DNA from: Magnetovibrio sp.
GTDB lineage: Bacteria; Pseudomonadota; Alphaproteobacteria; Rhodospirillales; Magnetovibrionaceae
Length of the DNA stretch: 64,000 nt
Direction of reading: 5' to 3'
NCBI RefSeq assembly: GCF_036568125.1
Contig: NZ_DATCTF010000004.1
Location: forward strand, 124,001-188,000
The notes beneath the pieces were generated by a model. That model had not been told where the DNA came from. It made no database searches and was given only the letters and a program-made list of their open reading frames with translations. Both the position numbers and the translations under genes were made by a program. How positions within the stretch are numbered: the first letter of the stretch is position 1; each line of letters begins with the position of its first letter. Below, one piece after another: positions 7,083 to 40,253 of this stretch.

Positions 7083-7405
7083 GCGACGTTACCGTTTTGA
7101 CCCGATTGTTTGAGACCATTTCCAGCCGCAAGGGCGGTGATCCGGACTCTTCGTATACCGCCAAGCTGTTTCACAAGGGCCGCACGGCGATCGCACAAAA
7201 GGTCGGCGAAGAGGCGGTCGAGGTCAACATCGCCGCGTTGGCCGAAGGCCCGGACGCGCTGGCGGCGGAAAGCGCGGATTTGATTTATCACCTGATGGTG
7301 TTGTGGGCCGATGCCGACATCACCCCCGATCAAGTGTGGAGTGAATTGCAAAAGCGCGAGGGCGTGTCCGGGATCGAAGAAAAGCGTGCCCGAGGCGAGC
7401 TGTAA
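7079..7405 (+). CDS. hisE: Phosphoribosyl-ATP pyrophosphatase
   Basis: All-alpha MazG-type pyrophosphohydrolase converting PR-ATP to PR-AMP, the second step of histidine synthesis. Typical signatures are [20 protein letters not shown], with the acidic EEAVE and [12 protein letters not shown] metal-binding helices. 108 residues with no HisI domain, so PR-AMP cyclohydrolase must be encoded elsewhere. Translationally coupled to hisF through an ATGA overlap. Confidence 0.96.
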
Positions 7406-7417
7406 GGGGGGGGTGCC

Positions 7418-7777
7418 ATGACGTACGATACTGACAACATCTTTGCCAAAATTTTGCGCGGCGAAATTCCGTGCGACAAAGTCTACGAAGACGAATGGGT
7501 GTTGGCGTTCAACGACATCGCGCCGCAAGCGCCGGTTCACGTGTTGGTGATTCCCAAGGGCGCATACGCGTCGATGGACGATTTCACCGCCAACGCGTCG
7601 GATGCGGAAATCGTCGGCCTGTACCGCGCGGTCGGCCAGATCGCCCGCGATCTCGGCCTGGTCGAGGCGGGCTACAGAACCATCAACAACACCGGGCGCG
7701 ATAGTCATCAGGAAGTGCCGCACCTGCACGTGCATATTCTGGCCGGCCGTCCCCTCGGCCCGATGTTGGCGCGCTAA
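7418..7777 (+). CDS. hinT: HIT-family purine nucleoside phosphoramidase HinT
   Basis: 119-residue histidine-triad hydrolase. The triad is HLHVHILAG close to the C-terminus, and the N-terminus (NIFAKILRGEIPCDKVYEDE) is typical of HinT/PKCI proteins. HinT cleaves aminoacyl- and lysyl-adenylates and other nucleoside phosphoramidates. The last gene of the his transcription unit in many alphaproteobacteria; here it begins 13 bp after hisE. Confidence 0.95.
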   Translation: MTYDTDNIFAKILRGEIPCDKVYEDEWVLAFNDIAPQAPVHVLVIPKGAYASMDDFTANASDAEIVGLYRAVGQIARDLGLVEAGYRTINNTGRDSHQEVPHLHVHILAGRPLGPMLAR

Positions 7778-7780
7778 ACC

Positions 7781-8023
7781 ATGGCTATCGACGGCGTCGG
7801 ACCCGACGGCACAATCATCATGTGCACCCTGACCTGTCCGCATTGCGGGCATCGGGAAGAATTGGAAATGCCGCCGTATTCATCGCAGCAGTTTCACACC
7901 TGTTCGGGCTGTGGGGCGCGATTGCAGGCCACCGGCGCGGCTTGCTGCGTGTTTTGTGCGTATGGCGACGTACCGTGTCCGCCGACGCAGTTGGGTGGGA
8001 AAAGCTGCTGCTCGCCCGATTGA
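7781..8023 (+). CDS. GDCCVxC-type small Cys-rich protein
   Basis: 80 residues with LTCPHCGH, CSGCGA, then GAACCVFCAYGDVPCPP and a final CC pair. This closely follows the GDCCVxC domain family, small putative metal-binding proteins of unknown function often found near mercury or heavy-metal genes. The strict GDCC is GAACC here. The start may be 7781, only 3 bp after hinT, or the internal ATG at 7820, which would give 67 residues starting MCTLTCPHC. Confidence 0.65.
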   Translation: MAIDGVGPDGTIIMCTLTCPHCGHREELEMPPYSSQQFHTCSGCGARLQATGAACCVFCAYGDVPCPPTQLGGKSCCSPD

Positions 8024-8030
8024 GCGCCGC

Positions 8031-8216
8031 TCAGCTCGATGTGTAGTCGCGCAAAATGACCTCGGCGTTGCGCAACAGAATGCGCGCCGGACAATCCTCC
8101 ATGCACGGTTTATTTCGGCCGTCCTTGCGCAAAACCGTCAAGCCGCAGGTGCTGCACATCGCGTTGCTTTGTTGTGTGAGCTTGGCGCTCAACGCGGGAT
8201 AATCAGGTATCGTCAT
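8031..8216 (-). CDS. Small Cys-rich protein, paralogue of the next gene
   Basis: With the ATG at 8216 the product has 61 residues: MTIPDYPALSAKL, then CSTCG, then CMEDCPARI. This aligns with the neighbour at 8338-8535 over both the N-terminus and a CxxC-x13-14-CxxxC pattern, so the two are probably an old tandem duplication. Four cysteines in such spacing suggest a zinc knuckle, though iron is possible. The frame is open to 8285, but the similarity begins at 8216. Function unknown. Confidence 0.55.
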   Translation of the reverse strand: MTIPDYPALSAKLTQQSNAMCSTCGLTVLRKDGRNKPCMEDCPARILLRNAEVILRDYTSS

Positions 8217-8337
8217 CGGAAAATTATAAACGCAACAACCGCTGATTTGCTCATGCAAAAGAGGCATGGCTACCATGACGAACAATCTTGGCGCGAAAGC
8301 ATTTCGGCACCGTACGCATCTGGGGAATGGAAAAGGA

Positions 8338-8535
8338 TCAGCTTATACGGTCAATCTTCTCTTCGGAGATGGACATCGCCGTGGCGCGGACCCGGTGACC
8401 AGGGCAATCCGGTCGGCGGCATTTCATCACACCGTGGGCATCAAAATAGCGGTCACCGCATTTGCCGCAGGCTTCATCCATTTCCGAAAGCATACGTAAA
8501 CGCATCGCGTTGTAATCAGGATCCTGTTTGGTCAT
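8338..8535 (-). CDS. Small Cys-rich protein, paralogue of the previous gene
   Basis: 65 residues beginning MTKQDPDYNAMRLRML, with CGKCG and CRRPDCPGHR forming a putative four-Cys metal site. It is the upstream member of a tandem pair on the minus strand, with 121 bp between the genes. The region in front of it has a recognisable promoter containing an inverted repeat (8588-8616). The start has only a weak ribosome site, but the shared N-terminus of the two paralogues supports it. No known family recognised. Confidence 0.55.
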   Translation of the reverse strand: MTKQDPDYNAMRLRMLSEMDEACGKCGDRYFDAHGVMKCRRPDCPGHRVRATAMSISEEKIDRIS

Positions 8536-8587
8536 GGGTGCTGACCTAAGTCACATCGAACGTAAATCGTTCAAAACGGCAATGAAA

Positions 8588-8616
8588 TATGTACACTATT
8601 TCTTCGGAAATAGCAA
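8588..8616 (-). promoter_or_regulatory. Promoter with an 18-bp dyad in its spacer (putative repressor operator)
   Basis: On the minus strand, TTGCTA (8616-8611) and TACATA (8593-8588) are 17 bp apart. The spacer is almost filled by an inverted repeat, CTATTTC-TTCG-GAAATAG (8596-8613, plus-strand reading), with perfect 7-bp arms. A dyad between -35 and -10 is a classic repressor site. The same sequence on the plus strand could form a C(UUCG)G hairpin, but no gene reads that way here. Confidence 0.45.
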
Positions 8617-8696
8617 GATTAGACTAGTCTTAATAATTGTATAATGATTCCAGATTCAATGGATCATGGGCGCTGCACAACCCGTTGGATGGTTCA

Positions 8697-10241
8697 TTAT
8701 GCCCCGCCTGTGATGTTCGAATGGCCCGGAATGCGCCGACGATAGGACAGCGCTTCGGCGAGGTGCAGTTTTAAAACCATCGGCTTGGCGTCCAAATCGG
8801 CAATCGTGCGTGCGACTTTTATGATGCGGTGATAACCGCGTGCACTGAGGCGCATGCGTCCGGCCGCGTCCGTCAGCAGGTCCTTAGCCGCACCGTCCAG
8901 TTGCGCAATGCTTTCGAGCACTTGGCCTTCCGCTTCGGCGTTGGTGCGTGCTTCGGCGCCCAAGGCATCGAAACGCTCGATTTGACGCCTGCGGGCTTCG
9001 GCGACACGTTGACGCACCTGCTTGGACGTTTCACACGGCGGCGGCAAAGCCAAATCGACCGCCGCAACCATCGGCACCTCGACATGCAGGTCGATGCGAT
9101 CCAAAAGCGGCCCGGACAAGCGGTTTTGGTAATCTTCCGCGCATTTGGGCGCGCGCGAGCAAGCCTGCCCGGGATCGTCGAGGTAACCGCACCGGCATGG
9201 GTTCATGGCGGCGACCAGTTGAAATCGTGCCGGATACGAAACATGAGCGCTGGCACGGGCGATTACGGCCACGCCGGATTCGATCGGTTGGCGCAGGGCT
9301 TCCAGCGCAGGGCGTTGAAATTCAGGCAATTCATCCAAAAACAACACACCCAAATGAGCCAACGAAATTTCACCGGGACGCACCTGTATGCCACCACCGA
9401 CCAATGCGGCCTGTGATGCCGAATGATGCGGGTCGCGAAACGGCCGGGTGCGCATCAGGCCGCCTTCGGGCAATGTTCCGGCTAGCGAATGAATCATCGA
9501 TACATCCAGTGCTTCCTCAGGGGACAGGTCGGGTAACAGCCCCGGAAGGCGTCTGGCGAGCAAGGATTTGCCGGCGCCGGGCGGCCCGCTCATGAGCAGG
9601 TTGTGGCCGCCTGCCGCGGCGATTTCCAGCGCCCGCTTGGCTGATTCCTGGCCTTTTATATCTACTAGGTCTAGGACTGGTAGGGCTTCCAAATGGGTAG
9701 TGGAAATAAGCGCATTCGGACGACTTAAGACTTGTGATCCTTTGAAATGATTGACCAAATCAATGAGCGACCGGGGCGCGAGCACGTCCAGATCGCCCGC
9801 CCAAACGGCTTCACCACCTTGCGCAGGCGGGCAAATCAGTCCAAGACCTTGGGCGTTTGCAAAAATAGCGCTGGGCAACACGCCGGAAACCCGCGTGAGC
9901 GTACCGTCGAGCGCCAGTTCGCCTAGGGCGACAAACCCGTCCATTTGATCCGCAGGCAAAACGTCCATCGCGGTGAGCAGACCTAGCGCGATCGGCAGGT
10001 CGAAATGCGACCCTTCCTTTAGGGCATCAGCGGGTGACAGGTTGACGGTGATGCGTTTGGGCGGCAACGCCAACCCCAACGCCGACAGGGCGGCGCGCAC
10101 CCGTTCGCGTGCCTCGCTGACCGCCTTGTTGGGCAGGCCGACGACGGTAAACGACGGTAGACCTTGCGCAATGTGCACTTGAACGTCGACCGGCAAAACC
10201 TCGATGCCCTGAAAGGCGACGGTATTGATGCGTGCAACCAT
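8697..10241 (-). CDS. comM: YifB/ComM-like Mg-chelatase-type AAA+ ATPase
   Basis: 514 residues with the three-part architecture of the ComM/YifB family: an N-terminal Lon-protease-like (ChlI) domain (RINTVAFQGIEVLPVDVQVH), a central AAA+ domain with Walker A GPPGAGKSLLARRL and Walker B VLFLDELPEF, a Cys cluster (CRCGYL...CSRAPKC), and a C-terminal Mg-chelatase domain ending SYRRRIPG. ComM is a helicase promoting branch migration during natural transformation. The family is widespread in non-competent bacteria too, so competence is not implied. Confidence 0.92.
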   Translation of the reverse strand: MVARINTVAFQGIEVLPVDVQVHIAQGLPSFTVVGLPNKAVSEARERVRAALSALGLALPPKRITVNLSPADALKEGSHFDLPIALGLLTAMDVLPADQMDGFVALGELALDGTLTRVSGVLPSAIFANAQGLGLICPPAQGGEAVWAGDLDVLAPRSLIDLVNHFKGSQVLSRPNALISTTHLEALPVLDLVDIKGQESAKRALEIAAAGGHNLLMSGPPGAGKSLLARRLPGLLPDLSPEEALDVSMIHSLAGTLPEGGLMRTRPFRDPHHSASQAALVGGGIQVRPGEISLAHLGVLFLDELPEFQRPALEALRQPIESGVAVIARASAHVSYPARFQLVAAMNPCRCGYLDDPGQACSRAPKCAEDYQNRLSGPLLDRIDLHVEVPMVAAVDLALPPPCETSKQVRQRVAEARRRQIERFDALGAEARTNAEAEGQVLESIAQLDGAAKDLLTDAAGRMRLSARGYHRIIKVARTIADLDAKPMVLKLHLAEALSYRRRIPGHSNITGGA

Positions 10242-35304: not shown

Positions 35305-36606
35305 ATGACTGCTTTAGAGCTGTTTTTATACATCATGCTGGGGGCCTTGGTGCAGGTCGCGATCGCCGCTTTCGTGGTACTGGTCAAGCGCTGGCGCGAT
35401 TTGCGGTTCATGGAAAAGCGCCTCAGTGGTCTTGAGGTTCCGACCCCCGGCGAACCGATCCTCGACGATCTGAAAGCCGCGTTCCAGCCCGGCCGCAAGG
35501 GCGGGCCGTGGAAGGGTGAACGGCCCTTTCGCGTCGCCAAGCGCGAAATCGAATCACCCGACGGCAAGATCTGCTCGTTTTACCTGGAACCCGAAGACGG
35601 CGGGCCACTGGCCGATTTCAAGCCCGGTCAGTTTCTCACCTTTCAGCTCGACATCGCCGATGAGGCCGTAAGCGGCCCGCCCAAGGCGGTGACGCGGTGC
35701 TATTCGCTGTCCGATGCGCCGGGTGGTGGGCGCTACCGGGTGTCGATCAAGCGGGTGGAGGCGCCGTTCGACAAACCCGACGCGCCGCCGGGCCTGTCGT
35801 CGAGTTACTTTCACGACCACGTCGACGAGGGCGACGTGCTCAAGGTCAAAACACCCAGCGGCCATTTTTATCTGGAGCGCGGCACCAGCCCGATCGTGTT
35901 GATCGCGGGCGGCATCGGCATCACGCCGATGATCTCTATGCTCAACGACGCGCTGACCCACAACCCGGATCGCGAAGTGTGGCTGTTTTACGGTGTGCGC
36001 AATTCCGCAGAGCAAGCTATGCAAGAGCATCTGCAGCGTCTCGACGGGCGCTATCCGAATTTTCATCTGCACGTTTGCTACAGTCGTCCGCTGCCAGGCG
36101 ATCAATTGGGCCGCGACTATCAACACGAGGGCCGCGTCGACGTCGATCTGCTGCGCCGAACGTTGAAGTTCCAGGTCTACGATTTTTACATCTGCGGCCC
36201 GAGGGCGATGATGGAAAGCCTGGTTCCGGCGCTCGACGACTGGGGCGTGCCCGACCAGCACATTCATTACGAAGCGTTCGGCCCGGCCTCGATCCCGCGG
36301 CCCAAGCGCCAGCAAGCCGAATCGGCGGAGACGCAGGACGAAGCGCCAGGTCCCGTCAGCGTCACCTTCGCGACGTCGGGCAAAACCGTGCCATGGGATC
36401 CGGCCTGCGAAAGTTTGTTGGAGTTCGCCGAACAACACAACATCGACATCGCGTCGGGCTGTCGCGCGGGCGGCTGCGGCAGTTGCCAGACCGTCATCCA
36501 AAGCGGCGAAGTCAGCTACACCCACAGCCCCGATTTCGATCCCGAGCCGGGCACCTGCCTGATGTGCGTGTCGCGCCCCAAACGCGATCTGACGGTGGAG
36601 GCGTGA
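35305..36606 (+). CDS. Membrane-anchored FAD/NAD(P)-[2Fe-2S] oxidoreductase
   Basis: 433 residues. A single N-terminal anchor (about residues 5-27) leads to a ferredoxin-reductase-type FAD domain with RCYS (131-134), an NAD(P)-binding domain with GGIGITPM (202-209) and CGPRAMMESL, and a C-terminal plant-type [2Fe-2S] domain with Cys386, Cys391, Cys394 and Cys418 or Cys421. The order anchor-FAD-NAD-Fe/S differs from NqrF, where the Fe/S domain follows the anchor. It should take electrons from NAD(P)H and pass them to the cytochrome b gene that starts 4 nt after its stop. A weak TTGGCG-17-TACACA promoter lies at 35214-35242. Confidence 0.9.
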   Translation: MTALELFLYIMLGALVQVAIAAFVVLVKRWRDLRFMEKRLSGLEVPTPGEPILDDLKAAFQPGRKGGPWKGERPFRVAKREIESPDGKICSFYLEPEDGGPLADFKPGQFLTFQLDIADEAVSGPPKAVTRCYSLSDAPGGGRYRVSIKRVEAPFDKPDAPPGLSSSYFHDHVDEGDVLKVKTPSGHFYLERGTSPIVLIAGGIGITPMISMLNDALTHNPDREVWLFYGVRNSAEQAMQEHLQRLDGRYPNFHLHVCYSRPLPGDQLGRDYQHEGRVDVDLLRRTLKFQVYDFYICGPRAMMESLVPALDDWGVPDQHIHYEAFGPASIPRPKRQQAESAETQDEAPGPVSVTFATSGKTVPWDPACESLLEFAEQHNIDIASGCRAGGCGSCQTVIQSGEVSYTHSPDFDPEPGTCLMCVSRPKRDLTVEA

Positions 36607-36610
36607 GCGC

Positions 36611-37192
36611 ATGGAAGTGAAATCGCTGCTGCGTCAGGAAGTCGCGCCGTTCTTCGCCCAGTTCGCCATGCTGGTGGCGGCGGCGATCGTGTCCGATCAA
36701 GTGCTGCACGCCCTCGATCTGGTGTGGGTGGGGCGTTATCTGGGCATTCCCGGCACGCTCTTGATCGTGCTGTCGTTCCTCTATTCGCTGCGCAAGCGCA
36801 AGATGATCACGGTGGGCAGTCCCAAGGCGCTGTTGTGGCTGCACGAAACCCTGACCTGGGCGGGATCGCTGATGGTGTTGGTGCACGCGGGCATCCACTT
36901 CAACGCGGTGCTGCCGTGGCTGGCGATGATCTTCATGATCATCAACGTGCTCAGCGGCATGGTCGGCCAACGTTTGCTGCACCGTTCGCGCCAGCACCTG
37001 AAGGAAAAGGAAGAGCGCTACCGATCCCACGGAATGAGCAAGGAAGAGGTCGAGCGCGAGGTGTTTTGGGATTCGGTCACCTATGACCTGATGGCCAAAT
37101 GGCGCATTGTGCACTTTCCCATCTCGTTCGTGTTCGGCGTGGTGACGCTCGGCCACATCGTGTCCATCTTCATGTTTTGGGGGTGGAAATGA
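36611..37192 (+). CDS. Small diheme cytochrome b-like membrane protein
   Basis: 193 residues with about five hydrophobic helices. His78 and His92 lie in one helix (LHETLTWAGSLMVLVH) and His168 and His182 in another (VHFPISFVFGVVTLGH). Both pairs are 14 residues apart, the spacing that holds two stacked b hemes across a membrane. No family name comes to mind. The start is 4 nt past the reductase stop, and its TGA overlaps the ATG of the multiheme cytochrome, so all three are co-translated. Likely passes electrons across the inner membrane. Confidence 0.72.
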   Translation: MEVKSLLRQEVAPFFAQFAMLVAAAIVSDQVLHALDLVWVGRYLGIPGTLLIVLSFLYSLRKRKMITVGSPKALLWLHETLTWAGSLMVLVHAGIHFNAVLPWLAMIFMIINVLSGMVGQRLLHRSRQHLKEKEERYRSHGMSKEEVEREVFWDSVTYDLMAKWRIVHFPISFVFGVVTLGHIVSIFMFWGWK

Positions 37193-38652
37193 GCCGTCTG
37201 GTGAAAATCGTCTTGTGGCTGAACATGGGCGTGCTCACGGTGCTGGCGTTCCTGTACGCCAACCTGATGATCAGCCCCGGCCATCTGATTGACGGCCACA
37301 AGGATATCGAGGGCGATTGCTTCGCCTGCCACACCTTGTTCCTGGGCGCGGCGGACGACAAGTGCGTCGAGTGTCACAAGGTCAAAGACATCGGACTGCG
37401 CACCACCAAGGGCATGGTGGTGCCGCCCAAGGCCCAGGGCAAGACCCCGGTGGCGTTCCATCAAAAGCTGGTCGGTCAGGAATGCGTCGCGTGCCATTCC
37501 GATCACGTCGGCATCGCCATGTATCGCGCCCAGTTCAAGTTCTCGCACAACCTGTTGGACCAACAGACGCAAAAGGACTGTGTGGCGTGCCATGCCAAAC
37601 CGGTTGATAACATCCACAAAAGCGCCTCGAGCGAATGCAGCCAGTGCCACACCATCGAAAAATGGAAGCCCGCGACCTTCAAGCACGAGCTGCTGCCCAA
37701 GGCCGAGCTGGCCCAGTGCGTAAGCTGCCACAAGGCCGCGACGCCCAAGGACAAGCTGCATCAAACCAGCACCGAAAAGTGCGGCCTGTGCCACGTTACC
37801 GACAAGTGGAAACCGGTCGAATTCAAGCATGCGAATTTGGCCAAGGCGGACCTGGAAGACTGCGCGGCGTGCCATACGGCGCACACGCCCAAAGACAAGC
37901 TGCACCAAAACGTCTCGAACAAGTGCGGCCTGTGCCATGTCACCGACAAATGGAAACCGGCGACCTTCAAGCACGACTTGCTGCCGAAGGCGGAACTGCA
38001 GCAATGCGCCAGCTGTCACAAGGCTGCGACGCCGAAGGACAAGACCCATGACGGCTTGAGCACCGAGGTTCGCGACCAGTGCGGTCTGTGCCACAAGACC
38101 GACAAGTGGAAGCCTGCGACCTTCAAACACGACCTGCTGCCCAAGGCGGAGTTGCAACAATGCGCCACTTGTCACAAGGCTGCGACGCCGAAAGATAAGA
38201 CCCACGACCGCCTGACGGAGGAAATGCGCATCAAATGCGGCATCTGCCACAAGACCGAAAAGTGGAAGCCGGCAAGCTTCAAGCACGATCTGCTGCCCAA
38301 GGCGGAGCTGGAACAATGCGCAACGTGTCACAAGGCGGCGACGCCGAAGGACAAGACCCACGACCGCCTGACGGCGGAGATGCGCATCAAGTGCGGCATC
38401 TGCCACAAGACCGAAAAGTGGAAACCGGCCGGCTTCAAACACGACCTACTGCCCAAGGCGGAACTGCGCCAATGCGTCAACTGTCACGCCGCCAAGGCGC
38501 CCAACGACGACCGTCACCGCAATGCGTCCAAACGCTGCGGCAACTGTCATTACACGGACAAATGGAAACCGGTGAAAAAACGCAATGTCACGCCGTCGGG
38601 CACATCGTTAGGTAACGGCTGGTGGTTCAACGGTGGCGGTGACGACGATTAA
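37189..38652 (+). CDS. 17-heme c-type cytochrome with tandem two-heme modules
   Basis: 487 residues from the ATG at 37189. An N-terminal hydrophobic stretch (about residues 5-25) has no clear cleavage site and probably anchors the protein, with the rest in the periplasm. I count 17 CxxCH motifs. From residue about 150 on, six full modules and one partial repeat follow (48 or 52 residues each). Each holds CxxCH, KWKP-x2-F-x-H, CxxCH, and a Lys-x-His, giving two hemes and two candidate distal His ligands. The tail is Gly/Asp-rich. Needs the cytochrome c maturation system, not seen in this window. Confidence 0.93.
   Translation: MSRLVKIVLWLNMGVLTVLAFLYANLMISPGHLIDGHKDIEGDCFACHTLFLGAADDKCVECHKVKDIGLRTTKGMVVPPKAQGKTPVAFHQKLVGQECVACHSDHVGIAMYRAQFKFSHNLLDQQTQKDCVACHAKPVDNIHKSASSECSQCHTIEKWKPATFKHELLPKAELAQCVSCHKAATPKDKLHQTSTEKCGLCHVTDKWKPVEFKHANLAKADLEDCAACHTAHTPKDKLHQNVSNKCGLCHVTDKWKPATFKHDLLPKAELQQCASCHKAATPKDKTHDGLSTEVRDQCGLCHKTDKWKPATFKHDLLPKAELQQCATCHKAATPKDKTHDRLTEEMRIKCGICHKTEKWKPASFKHDLLPKAELEQCATCHKAATPKDKTHDRLTAEMRIKCGICHKTEKWKPAGFKHDLLPKAELRQCVNCHAAKAPNDDRHRNASKRCGNCHYTDKWKPVKKRNVTPSGTSLGNGWWFNGGGDDD
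37636..38571 (+). repeat. Tandem 144/156-bp repeats encoding two-heme modules
   Basis: Modules start at 37636, 37780, 37924, 38080, 38236, 38392 and (partial) 38536. Lengths are 48, 48, 52, 52, 52 and 48 residues, then 12. The 52-residue forms at 38080 and 38236 are the most alike and carry an extra insertion (DRLTEEMRIK-type) before the next CGxCH. This is an in-frame array produced by internal duplication. Confidence 0.85.
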
Positions 38653-38670
38653 GCTTTGAAATTCCAAGAT

Positions 38671-38699
38671 TTGTCATAATAATCAGATCCGTGTAATCT
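38671..38699 (+). promoter_or_regulatory. Sigma-70-like promoter for the heme sensor kinase gene
   Basis: TTGTCA (38671-38676), 17-bp spacer, TAATCT (38694-38699), immediately after the multiheme cytochrome gene. It would let the kinase be expressed separately from the reductase-cytochrome operon. Confidence 0.45.
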
Positions 38700-38732
38700 G
38701 TTCGCACAGGGCAATTGCGTCGGGGGGACGCG

Positions 38733-40253
38733 GTGGCGATAGATCGGCAATTGCGTCAAAGAGCGTACGGCACGTTGATGCTGGCGTTGATCTGGACGAT
38801 ATCGGTGGGCGGGTTGTTTATCTGGAACAACCGGTTGGCCCACACGCATACCCGTGACATGGCCCATGAGGATGCGATCAGCGCGTTCAACAAGGACCAA
38901 GCCCTGCGCCGATGGGCGGCAGGGCACGGCGGCGTCTATATGGAGGCCACCCGCGGTGTAAAGCCCAGCCCGTTCATGGAACACATCGAAGAACGCGACA
39001 TCATGACCCCATCGGGACGTATGCTGACGCTGGTCAATCCCGCCACGATGGTGCGTCAGATCATGGACGAGTACGCGCAGCTGTACGGCGTGCAGGGCCG
39101 TTTGGTGAGCCTCAATCCGTTTCAGCCCGACCATCTCGCCGATCCGTGGGAAACCGCCGCCATCGAGGCGTTTCAGCGCGGCGCAGAAGAGGTGCGCGAA
39201 ATTACCACCATCAACGGTGAAGAATTCTTTCGCATGATCCGCCCCATGGTCGCCACCAAGGTCTGTCTGAAATGTCATGGCCTGCAGGGGTATGAGGTCG
39301 GTGACGTTTTGGGCGGGGTCGGCACCATGGTGCCCATGAAACCGTATCGTGTTCAGCTGGCCGAGTTTTTGAAAGGCAACGCGATATCGCACGGTTTGAC
39401 CTGGATGCTGGGCCTCTTCGGTCTGACGGCGTGGCACGTTCGCGGCATTAAAACGGTGCGCGAACGCGAAACCGCGCGCACCAAGCTGGAAGATTTGGTG
39501 AAAGAACGCACGGCCGAATTGGAAGCGGCGAAAAAAGAGGCCGAAGCCGCCAACGAGGCCAAATCCAAGTTTCTCGCTTCGATGAGCCATGAGCTGCGCA
39601 CACCGCTCAACGCCATCATCGGGTTCAGCGATTTCATGAAGCTCAACATCGACGGCAATCTGAACGAAACGCAGAAAAGCTACATCGACGACATCCACTT
39701 TTCCGGCACCCACCTGCACGGGCTGATCAACGAAATTCTCGAACTGGCGAAAATCGAAAGCGGGGAAATCCGCCTCAACATTGTGCCGGTCGACCCCAAC
39801 CATGCCCTGCGTCAAAGCATCACCGCCAACACCCCGATGATGGAAAAGAAAAGCGTGCAGCTGCATAATCGCTGCGCCACACAGGGCGCGCCAAAGGTTT
39901 TGGCGGACGAAAACCGCCTGACACAGGTGTTCATCAACTTGGTTTCCAATGCCATCAAGTACAATCGCGACGGCGGCGAAATCGATGTGTCGTGCGAAGC
40001 CGCTACGGATGGACGGTGGCGGTTCGTGGTGGCCGATACCGGTCACGGCATTCCAGCCGCACGTCAAGACGAGATCTTCCAGCCATTTCACCGCCTGTCG
40101 GAAGAACAAGACAAAACCGAAGGCACCGGCATCGGTCTCACCATCGTCAAGGAACTGATCGAACACATGGACGGCCGGATCGGTTTTTCTTCCATCGAAG
40201 GCGAGGGTTCTAGCTTCTGGTTCGAGTTGCCGACCGCGGGCGACGAAGCCTAA
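38733..40253 (+). CDS. Histidine kinase with c-type-heme Tll0287-like (DUF3365) sensor domain
   Basis: 506 residues from the GTG at 38733 (GGGGGGA just upstream); the frame opens at TTG 38715. Two membrane helices (about residues 12-32 and 220-240) flank a periplasmic Tll0287-like/DUF3365 domain with a heme c motif CLKCH at 178-182. After a coiled coil come HisKA (SMSHELRTPLNAIIGF) and HATPase (NLVSNAIKYN, DTGHGIP, GTGIGLTIVKELIE). A heme that changes redox state or binds a gas probably controls kinase activity. No response regulator is adjacent. Confidence 0.9.
   Translation: MAIDRQLRQRAYGTLMLALIWTISVGGLFIWNNRLAHTHTRDMAHEDAISAFNKDQALRRWAAGHGGVYMEATRGVKPSPFMEHIEERDIMTPSGRMLTLVNPATMVRQIMDEYAQLYGVQGRLVSLNPFQPDHLADPWETAAIEAFQRGAEEVREITTINGEEFFRMIRPMVATKVCLKCHGLQGYEVGDVLGGVGTMVPMKPYRVQLAEFLKGNAISHGLTWMLGLFGLTAWHVRGIKTVRERETARTKLEDLVKERTAELEAAKKEAEAANEAKSKFLASMSHELRTPLNAIIGFSDFMKLNIDGNLNETQKSYIDDIHFSGTHLHGLINEILELAKIESGEIRLNIVPVDPNHALRQSITANTPMMEKKSVQLHNRCATQGAPKVLADENRLTQVFINLVSNAIKYNRDGGEIDVSCEAATDGRWRFVVADTGHGIPAARQDEIFQPFHRLSEEQDKTEGTGIGLTIVKELIEHMDGRIGFSSIEGEGSSFWFELPTAGDEA

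Follow-up and report, generated by a model that had tools for sequence, protein, structure and literature searches.

In NOX/FRE proteins and in the MsrQ-Fre pair, electrons pass from NAD(P)H to a flavin, on to one or more b hemes held in the membrane and from there to an acceptor outside. He et al. 2017 (PMC5566968), in their section on the subject, drew attention to short proteins of the inner membrane that have two HX13H motifs and are encoded beside unassigned multiheme cytochromes, mostly without a porin; in most such cases 'another redox protein' was said to be present in the cluster, and these cases were judged less likely to act in extracellular transfer. The DUF4405 cytochromes are a further group of membrane b-heme proteins, with four central histidines, and are presented in the pertinent part of PMC11334425 as proposed feeders of extracytosolic carriers. 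The passages on electron uptake in the papers on Thioclava and Pseudomonas CP-1 (PMC9226611, PMC12503164) concern other proteins.

Here, a three-gene set is described from Magnetovibrio sp. (assembly GCF_036568125.1, 3.39 Mb), within a stretch of 64,000 nucleotides (nt) of contig NZ_DATCTF010000004.1 (positions 124,001 to 188,000) that is called the window below and from whose first letter all positions are counted. The genes encode a membrane-anchored FNR-type reductase, a five-helix membrane protein that is predicted to be a diheme cytochrome b and a cytochrome with 17 CxxCH motifs, and together they probably specify an NAD(P)H-driven route for electron export over the inner membrane. The set is real and widespread and is apparently uncharacterised, but it is not a new four-gene system, as had been proposed in an original prediction that counted a histidine kinase as the last member. 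That prediction also knew of no named system with this composition, which is perhaps true for names; however, the kind had already been noted in the 2017 section cited above and the gene set is common, so the novelty is moderate.

A conserved three-gene set

All three genes lie on the forward strand. The reductase gene (35305..36606) is separated by 4 nt from the membrane protein gene (36611..37192), the end of which forms a 4-nt ATGA overlap with the ATG of the cytochrome gene (37189..38652); the coordinates were re-derived and bear out the tight linkage originally described. GC content at third codon positions (GC3) comes to 0.78 in the reductase and 0.79 in the cytochrome open reading frame (ORF), the two genes of the set covered by that list.

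In a scan of genome contigs, 284 stretches proved to encode a relative of the membrane protein, and the best 80, by closeness to the query, were kept as loci. A multiheme cytochrome is encoded downstream of the membrane protein gene in all 80 (in L115 and L123, which are cut by a contig end, it was recovered via tblastn), and the reductase is found upstream in 76 of the 79 loci where this was testable, which excludes L060, with some ORFs partial or split. Within the order to which the window belongs, 16 of 317 genomes gave a strong match, its own included, and three more gave a distant one; in the same genus a match was obtained in 2 of 6 genomes. Every one of the other 15 strongly matching genomes of the order holds all three genes, on two contigs in the case of G313. 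In a sample of the phylum, 38 of 398 genomes matched at E <=0.001, 24 of them strongly (own included), 13 only distantly and one by a weak partial match. Judged by record names, the hosts are Alpha-, Beta- and Gammaproteobacteria and Magnetococcales, and a search of plasmids and viral contigs gave no relative of the membrane protein. Looked for in other genomes, the four genes of the original prediction divide into three that are kept together and a kinase that is not conserved beside them.

Distance matrices computed for each of the three proteins correlate closely (r = 0.92-0.94 with 70 rows; the permutation maxima are 0.21-0.28), 11 of 81 rows having been dropped for want of a full reductase or cytochrome. 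Such agreement indicates inheritance as a unit and not, by itself, interaction.

Other genes recur around some of the loci. Several from Rhodocyclaceae (L100, L108, L111, L124, L074 and others) have, within a few kb, a DUF1924 (SHP-type) family of which one member was scanned, a family with two CxxCH motifs and one with Ferric_reduct (one scanned), often with a cation efflux transporter and a TerB/DUF533 gene downstream (one of each scanned). The reductase and membrane protein are identical or nearly so in L100, L106 and L111, which come from Accumulibacter sp. 66-26 and Dechloromonas records, reflecting either recent transfer or a mislabelled assembly. L165, a pair of membrane protein and cytochrome genes, adjoins a regulator and a permease that by eye look arsenic-related.

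Predicted cofactors of the three proteins

Beyond the conserved gene set, the sequences hold recognisable domains, cofactor motifs and four conserved histidines. The reductase has the Pfam domains FAD_binding_6 (PF00970), NAD_binding_1 (PF00175) and Fer2 (PF00111), the last forming a C-terminal plant-type [2Fe-2S] site with Cys386/391/394/421, and a single hydrophobic helix at residues 9-27 (35329-35385) that is followed by basic residues. The motifs RxYS, GGxGxTP, CG[PS] and C-x4-C-x2-C...C are present in all 16 aligned reductases, the window's included, and all 16 have a hydrophobic N-terminus. Domains, motifs and helix thus agree with the anchored FAD/NAD/[2Fe-2S] reductase of the original prediction. 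In NCBIfam, all 25 matches listed, including NADH oxidoreductase (PRK10684), NqrF and other named reductases, fall under the curated cut-offs.

The membrane protein is 193 amino acids (aa) long and has two histidine pairs, each 14 residues apart (HX13H): H78/H92, with codons at 36842 and 36884, and H168/H182, with codons at 37112 and 37154. At least two such pairs arose in 790 of 20,000 residue shuffles, so the spacing alone is only mildly unusual and is weak evidence. The pairs are taken as meaningful because their columns are conserved: histidine occupies those of H78 and H92 in 63/63 aligned sequences and those of H168 and H182 in 62/63, the one row without the second pair being a distant sequence that was cut short in the alignment and keeps both residues in the full protein. 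The alignment was made after 19 of 80 proteins had been dropped as at least 90% alike to a kept one or shorter than 180 aa. A first fold model built from 16 sequences was poor (pLDDT 72) and its structural matches were uninformative, while a second (pLDDT 84) predicted helices at 6-34, 38-60 (broken at 44), 71-95, 100-129 and 159-189. H78/H92 would then lie on helix 3 and H168/H182 on helix 5, with an SGxxG motif at residues 115-119 on helix 4. Taken together, hydropathy, the basic loops on one side and the model place one histidine of each of helices 3 and 5 at the cytoplasmic end (H78, H168) and the other at the periplasmic end (H92, H182), a predicted arrangement that is compatible with the needs of a diheme cytochrome b.

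Database searches returned little for this protein. It matches no Pfam family, Ferric_reduct (PF01794) included, and PDB sequence searches with the protein and with its profile gave no match. One relative matches Ferric_reduct weakly (0.0079), short of the cut-off, and weak matches to DUF4405 (PF14358) and Ni_hydr_CYTB occur in 29/63 (best E 2.7e-4) and 19/63 aligned relatives respectively, the window protein having neither.

The 17 CxxCH motifs of the cytochrome compare with a mean of 0.18 and a maximum of 2 in 2,000 shuffles, and the protein has an N-terminal hydrophobic anchor; Cytochrome_C7 and Cytochrom_CIII matches fit a periplasmic heme chain. There are 19 further histidines, enough for bis-His ligation, and at least one spare histidine per CxxCH is present in all 79 cytochromes counted (78 loci and the window, L115 and L123 being left out), which would fit electron carriage rather than catalysis. 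A PDB sequence search with the window cytochrome gave no match. Against a usual count of 8 for the family, 17 hemes is unusual: 8 motifs are found in 61 of the 79, 10 in 12, 12 in two and 11, 15, 16 and 17 once each, where some counts are minima on account of a contig end or masked bases (L056, L050). The homologue of Magnetovibrio blakemorei MV-1 (L061) has 10 hemes and that of Dechloromonas agitata (L111) has 8.

The high count looks like the product of tandem duplication of a two-heme unit. Tandem Repeats Finder detects repeats over 37636..38487, with a 144-bp period in 2.8 copies followed by a 156-bp period in 3.6 copies, each period corresponding to a two-heme unit. In the four genes with such units, mean unit likeness is 0.62-0.73 within a gene and 0.51-0.57 between genes, and L051 has no unit that fits the repeat pattern. 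On a quick tree of reductase and membrane protein from the same 70 rows, heme count requires 11 changes, and the five members of the supported set that includes the window have 17, 11, 16, 8 and 15 hemes. Because of these changes, the tandem repeats and the higher likeness within genes, it is probable that these lineages extended the wire, or homogenised its units, independently of one another.

Electron route, donor and rival explanations

In the proposed route, cytoplasmic NAD(P)H would reduce the FAD of the anchored reductase, and electrons would then pass through its [2Fe-2S] cluster to a heme b on the cytoplasmic side of the five-helix protein (His78/His168), across to a second heme b on the periplasmic side (His92/His182) and into the anchored, periplasmic chain of 17 c hemes. 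We infer the heme binding, the pairing of the histidines, the formation of a complex, the donor and the direction. Electron flow outward from NAD(P)H is downhill and aided by the membrane potential, and flow inward to NAD(P)+ is opposed by both; outward flow is preferred because the reverse would be uphill twice. The acceptor would most likely be a periplasmic cytochrome or reductase; outside the window the genome is well supplied with periplasmic electron carriers, having five NapC/NrfH-type and six DHC-type cytochrome matches as possible partners. A periplasmic end of the chain is probable because the genome has no match to MtrB_PioB (MtrB/PioB), the only porin family searched, for which control genomes likewise gave none over the cut-off and which may not cover the PCC3 porin. 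For the three genes, conserved motifs and neighbourhoods support the originally proposed path well, with NAD(P)H as source, two b hemes in the membrane and a chain of c hemes beyond; the kinase is not supported as a fourth member.

More distant relatives of the membrane protein bear on the donor. The distant set comprises 18 genomes, three from the order and fifteen from the phylum sample (two of which also have a close relative); G469, with a partial match at E 4.9e-4, was left out, and all but four of the 18 (G613, G572, G686, G678) were read as DNA. After realignment the four histidines are kept in 18/18 more distant proteins, 14 from distant genomes and four short ones from L165-L168. A flavoprotein gene lies directly upstream on the same strand, with 39-455 nt between matches, in 12/18 genomes. 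In seven it is a relative of a Pyr_redox/cNMP-binding/4Fe-4S protein (G443, G661, G686, G233, G470, G678, G213; domains scanned in one), with 10-heme cytochromes alongside in all five read, and in five it is an FNR-type reductase (G613, G572, G475, G663, G501; Fer2 in both scanned). G613 and G572 also have the Pyr_redox/cNMP protein, away from the detected membrane protein. The remaining six genomes contain a relative of a Pyr_redox/4Fe-4S protein at E 1e-40 or better, 0.25 to 8.8 kb away on the same contig in G674, G009, G463 and G560; a relative at this level is present in 6/6 of these genomes versus 0/12 of the others (Fisher p 5e-5, post hoc). Its N-terminus is clearly hydrophobic in two of the three read (hydropathy scores 2.18 and 1.89); the third is less hydrophobic there (1.23). 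The distant flavoproteins are of two unrelated types, and the families to which they belong usually use NAD(P)H. Their recurrence beside the membrane protein is the reason for favouring NAD(P)H as the donor over the quinone link of He et al. 2017. The cytochromes beside the six membrane proteins have 21-24 hemes in the five with ORFs read, and in heme count and layout, sequences aside, these loci look like the PCC3 clusters of that paper.

Some distant proteins have unusual architectures. The FNR-type reductases of L158 (3568-5676), L162 (6028-7944) and L170 (3767-5767) are 639-703 aa long and have, ahead of the FAD domain, a long N-terminal extension, which had no Pfam match in the two scanned, L158 and L162. 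Beside the Pyr_redox/cNMP/4Fe-4S branch, L161 encodes at 7181-9022 a 10-heme cytochrome with an FHA-like N-terminal domain, followed by a gene that by eye looks like a metallophosphoesterase, and the 10-heme cytochromes of L159 and L160 appear alike by eye. A table in PMC10734462 has a 10-heme 'Forkhead-associated' cluster entered without function, which recalls the L161 protein.

The best rival to NAD(P)H-driven export is the quinone model, which He et al. proposed for PCC3/PCC4 in the relevant section of PMC5566968 and by which the five-helix protein would link the heme chain to the quinone pool. Applied here, the reductase would feed quinone or serve another purpose; this reading is the best of the rivals but unlikely. 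Several results support it or otherwise weigh against NAD(P)H-driven export. Seven loci have no reductase, three among the kept 80 (L068, L073, L085) and a further four (L165-L168); in the genomes of these four, of which one is only 65% complete, the reductase family had no match at E 1e-20. The pair can thus function with a different donor, perhaps quinol. The figure of 76 of 79 describes the closest relatives, the 80 loci having been chosen by closeness, and among seven strong matches of the phylum sample with surroundings read a reductase accompanies L169, L171 and L172 and is absent from L165-L168. In G358 and G676 the Pyr_redox/4Fe-4S gene is on another contig. Two further histidines of the membrane protein, H33 (60/63) and H96 (62/63), are nearly invariant and fall on the periplasmic side by predicted topology. 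The close family and L165-L168 retain both, but in distant branches they mostly do not occur together; they could mark a possible third cofactor or quinone site. A Foldseek search with the second model gave nothing below E 0.001, and structure comparison placed cytochrome b561 (Z 8.8), b6 (Z 8.4) and NOX5 (Z 6.0) under unrelated helical bundles of up to Z 9.8, which is not decisive, so the structural likeness to b cytochromes is only compatible with a diheme protein. Shared ancestry would also yield correlated distance matrices, and no experimental study of the gene set was found in the open-licence PMC literature, nor was a suspected earlier description in Accumulibacter found in open-licence PMC papers. 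Set against the quinone model are the reductase that adjoins the membrane protein gene in nearly all testable close loci and the NAD(P)H-family flavoproteins directly upstream in two thirds of the distant genomes, and on balance these sequence data favour NAD(P)H.

The remaining alternatives are much less probable. An inward route from a periplasmic or extracellular donor to NAD(P)+ might be expected in lithotrophs, and many hosts are named in their records after iron- or sulfur-oxidising groups, such as Gallionellaceae, Thiobacillus and Beggiatoa-like bacteria, but Dechloromonas and Aromatoleum hosts are heterotrophs. Such flow would have to climb in redox potential and oppose the membrane potential, and the set includes no source of energy for this; it is improbable even though the portion of PMC12442390 on Sideroxydans CL21 reports expression of a PCC3 inner-membrane gene rising with iron oxidation. 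That the genes are chance neighbours, the reductase serving a soluble oxygenase or some other partner, can hardly be credited: its best NCBIfam scores are indeed to flavohemoprotein and oxygenase reductases, all below cut-off, but gene order and partners are kept across four host groups.

Only slightly more probable than inward flow, and still improbable, is a four-gene signalling unit in which a heme-c kinase would sense how far the heme chain is reduced and control it. The kinase gene (38715..40253, forward strand) begins at TTG 38715 or, more likely, GTG 38733, that is 62 or 80 nt past the cytochrome gene, and its product has HisKA (PF00512) and HATPase_c (PF02518) domains behind a Tll0287-like domain (PF11845) that does contain the predicted CxxCH (residues 184-188). 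A kinase directly follows the cytochrome in one of the 15 related genomes of the order (L029), and a kinase-like ORF lies within 3 kb in four more (L026, L027, L028, L035), but the L029 sensors are different (dCache_3 and PAS). An ORF resembling the part of the window kinase before its core occurs in just 3 of the 80 loci (L070, L073, L075), and only in L075 does it stand beside the triad, directly preceding the reductase; this count used the best BLAST match only, in loci that extend a limited distance, and could have missed a diverged heme sensor. The Pfam scan gave an ABC transporter, the kinase and an MFS transporter as the immediate neighbours of the set, and the gene after the kinase is the MFS transporter, not a response regulator. 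The kinase was accordingly rejected as a conserved part; a link in single lineages is possible, though not a property of the system, and any regulation by the kinase would be local at most.

Implications and relation to described systems

A wider reading can be put forward tentatively, with somewhat less than even confidence: the diheme b family may be a general adaptor of Proteobacteria that joins a dedicated, interchangeable NAD(P)H flavoprotein to a multiheme wire, with or without a porin, the length of the wire being tuned by duplication of two-heme units. PCC3/PCC4-like clusters would then be NAD(P)H-driven exporters rather than routes from Fe(II) to quinone. The partners found are FNR-type proteins with [2Fe-2S] or Pyr_redox proteins with 4Fe-4S on the inside, and wires of 6 to 24 CxxCH in the ORFs read. 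If true, NAD(P)H would supply periplasmic c hemes with electrons directly, with quinone bypassed, as a redox valve in many environmental bacteria, among them, by record name, groups from wastewater, water and iron- or sulfur-rich sediments. Furthermore, the inner-membrane proteins of PCC3/PCC4-like clusters would gain a testable donor and direction, and the series from 8 to 17 hemes is a natural experiment on how a heme wire is lengthened. Neither the recurrence of NAD(P)H-family flavoproteins in several branches of a single family of membrane proteins nor the repeat-driven lengthening of the wire was seen in print in the open-licence PMC literature.

The window set resembles NOX/FRE and MsrQ-Fre in its route, and its two H-x13-H pairs stand on helices 3 and 5 as in the Ferric reductase/NOX superfamily and are spaced as in FRD. 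Unlike those systems, it has a separate reductase with [2Fe-2S], a multiheme cytochrome as acceptor and no Ferric_reduct match. DUF4405 cytochromes, as described in the part of PMC11334425 devoted to them, have six helices and flavinylated partners, whereas the window protein has five predicted helices and, unlike the 29 weakly matching relatives, no DUF4405 match. The SHP/DHC operon shares a membrane diheme b and periplasmic c hemes, but the account in PMC2909971 treats it as quinol-linked, involves other families and, in the portion concerned, names no NAD(P)H reductase.

The likeness to the clusters of He et al. is greater. PCC3/PCC4 and window membrane proteins both have, by the description in PMC5566968, five helices, SGxxG on helix 4 and two HX13H motifs, and the profile of the window family reaches proteins beside 21-24-heme cytochromes that resemble PCC3. 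The same description gives PCC3 an outer-membrane porin and an extracellular multiheme cytochrome, neither of which was seen at the window locus, and a membrane protein of about 300 aa rather than 193. Closest of all is the unassigned group of that paper, which its authors relate to the quinone-active PCC3/PCC4 proteins and whose redox protein is not described in that section. As far as the description goes, group and window have in common five helices with HX13H on helices 3 and 5, an adjoining multiheme cytochrome, another redox protein (here an FNR-type reductase) and no porin seen nearby. In the group the membrane protein gene is often downstream of the cytochrome, but in the window and at all 80 loci it is upstream, and for this reason the three-gene set is taken as a variant of the group noted by He et al.

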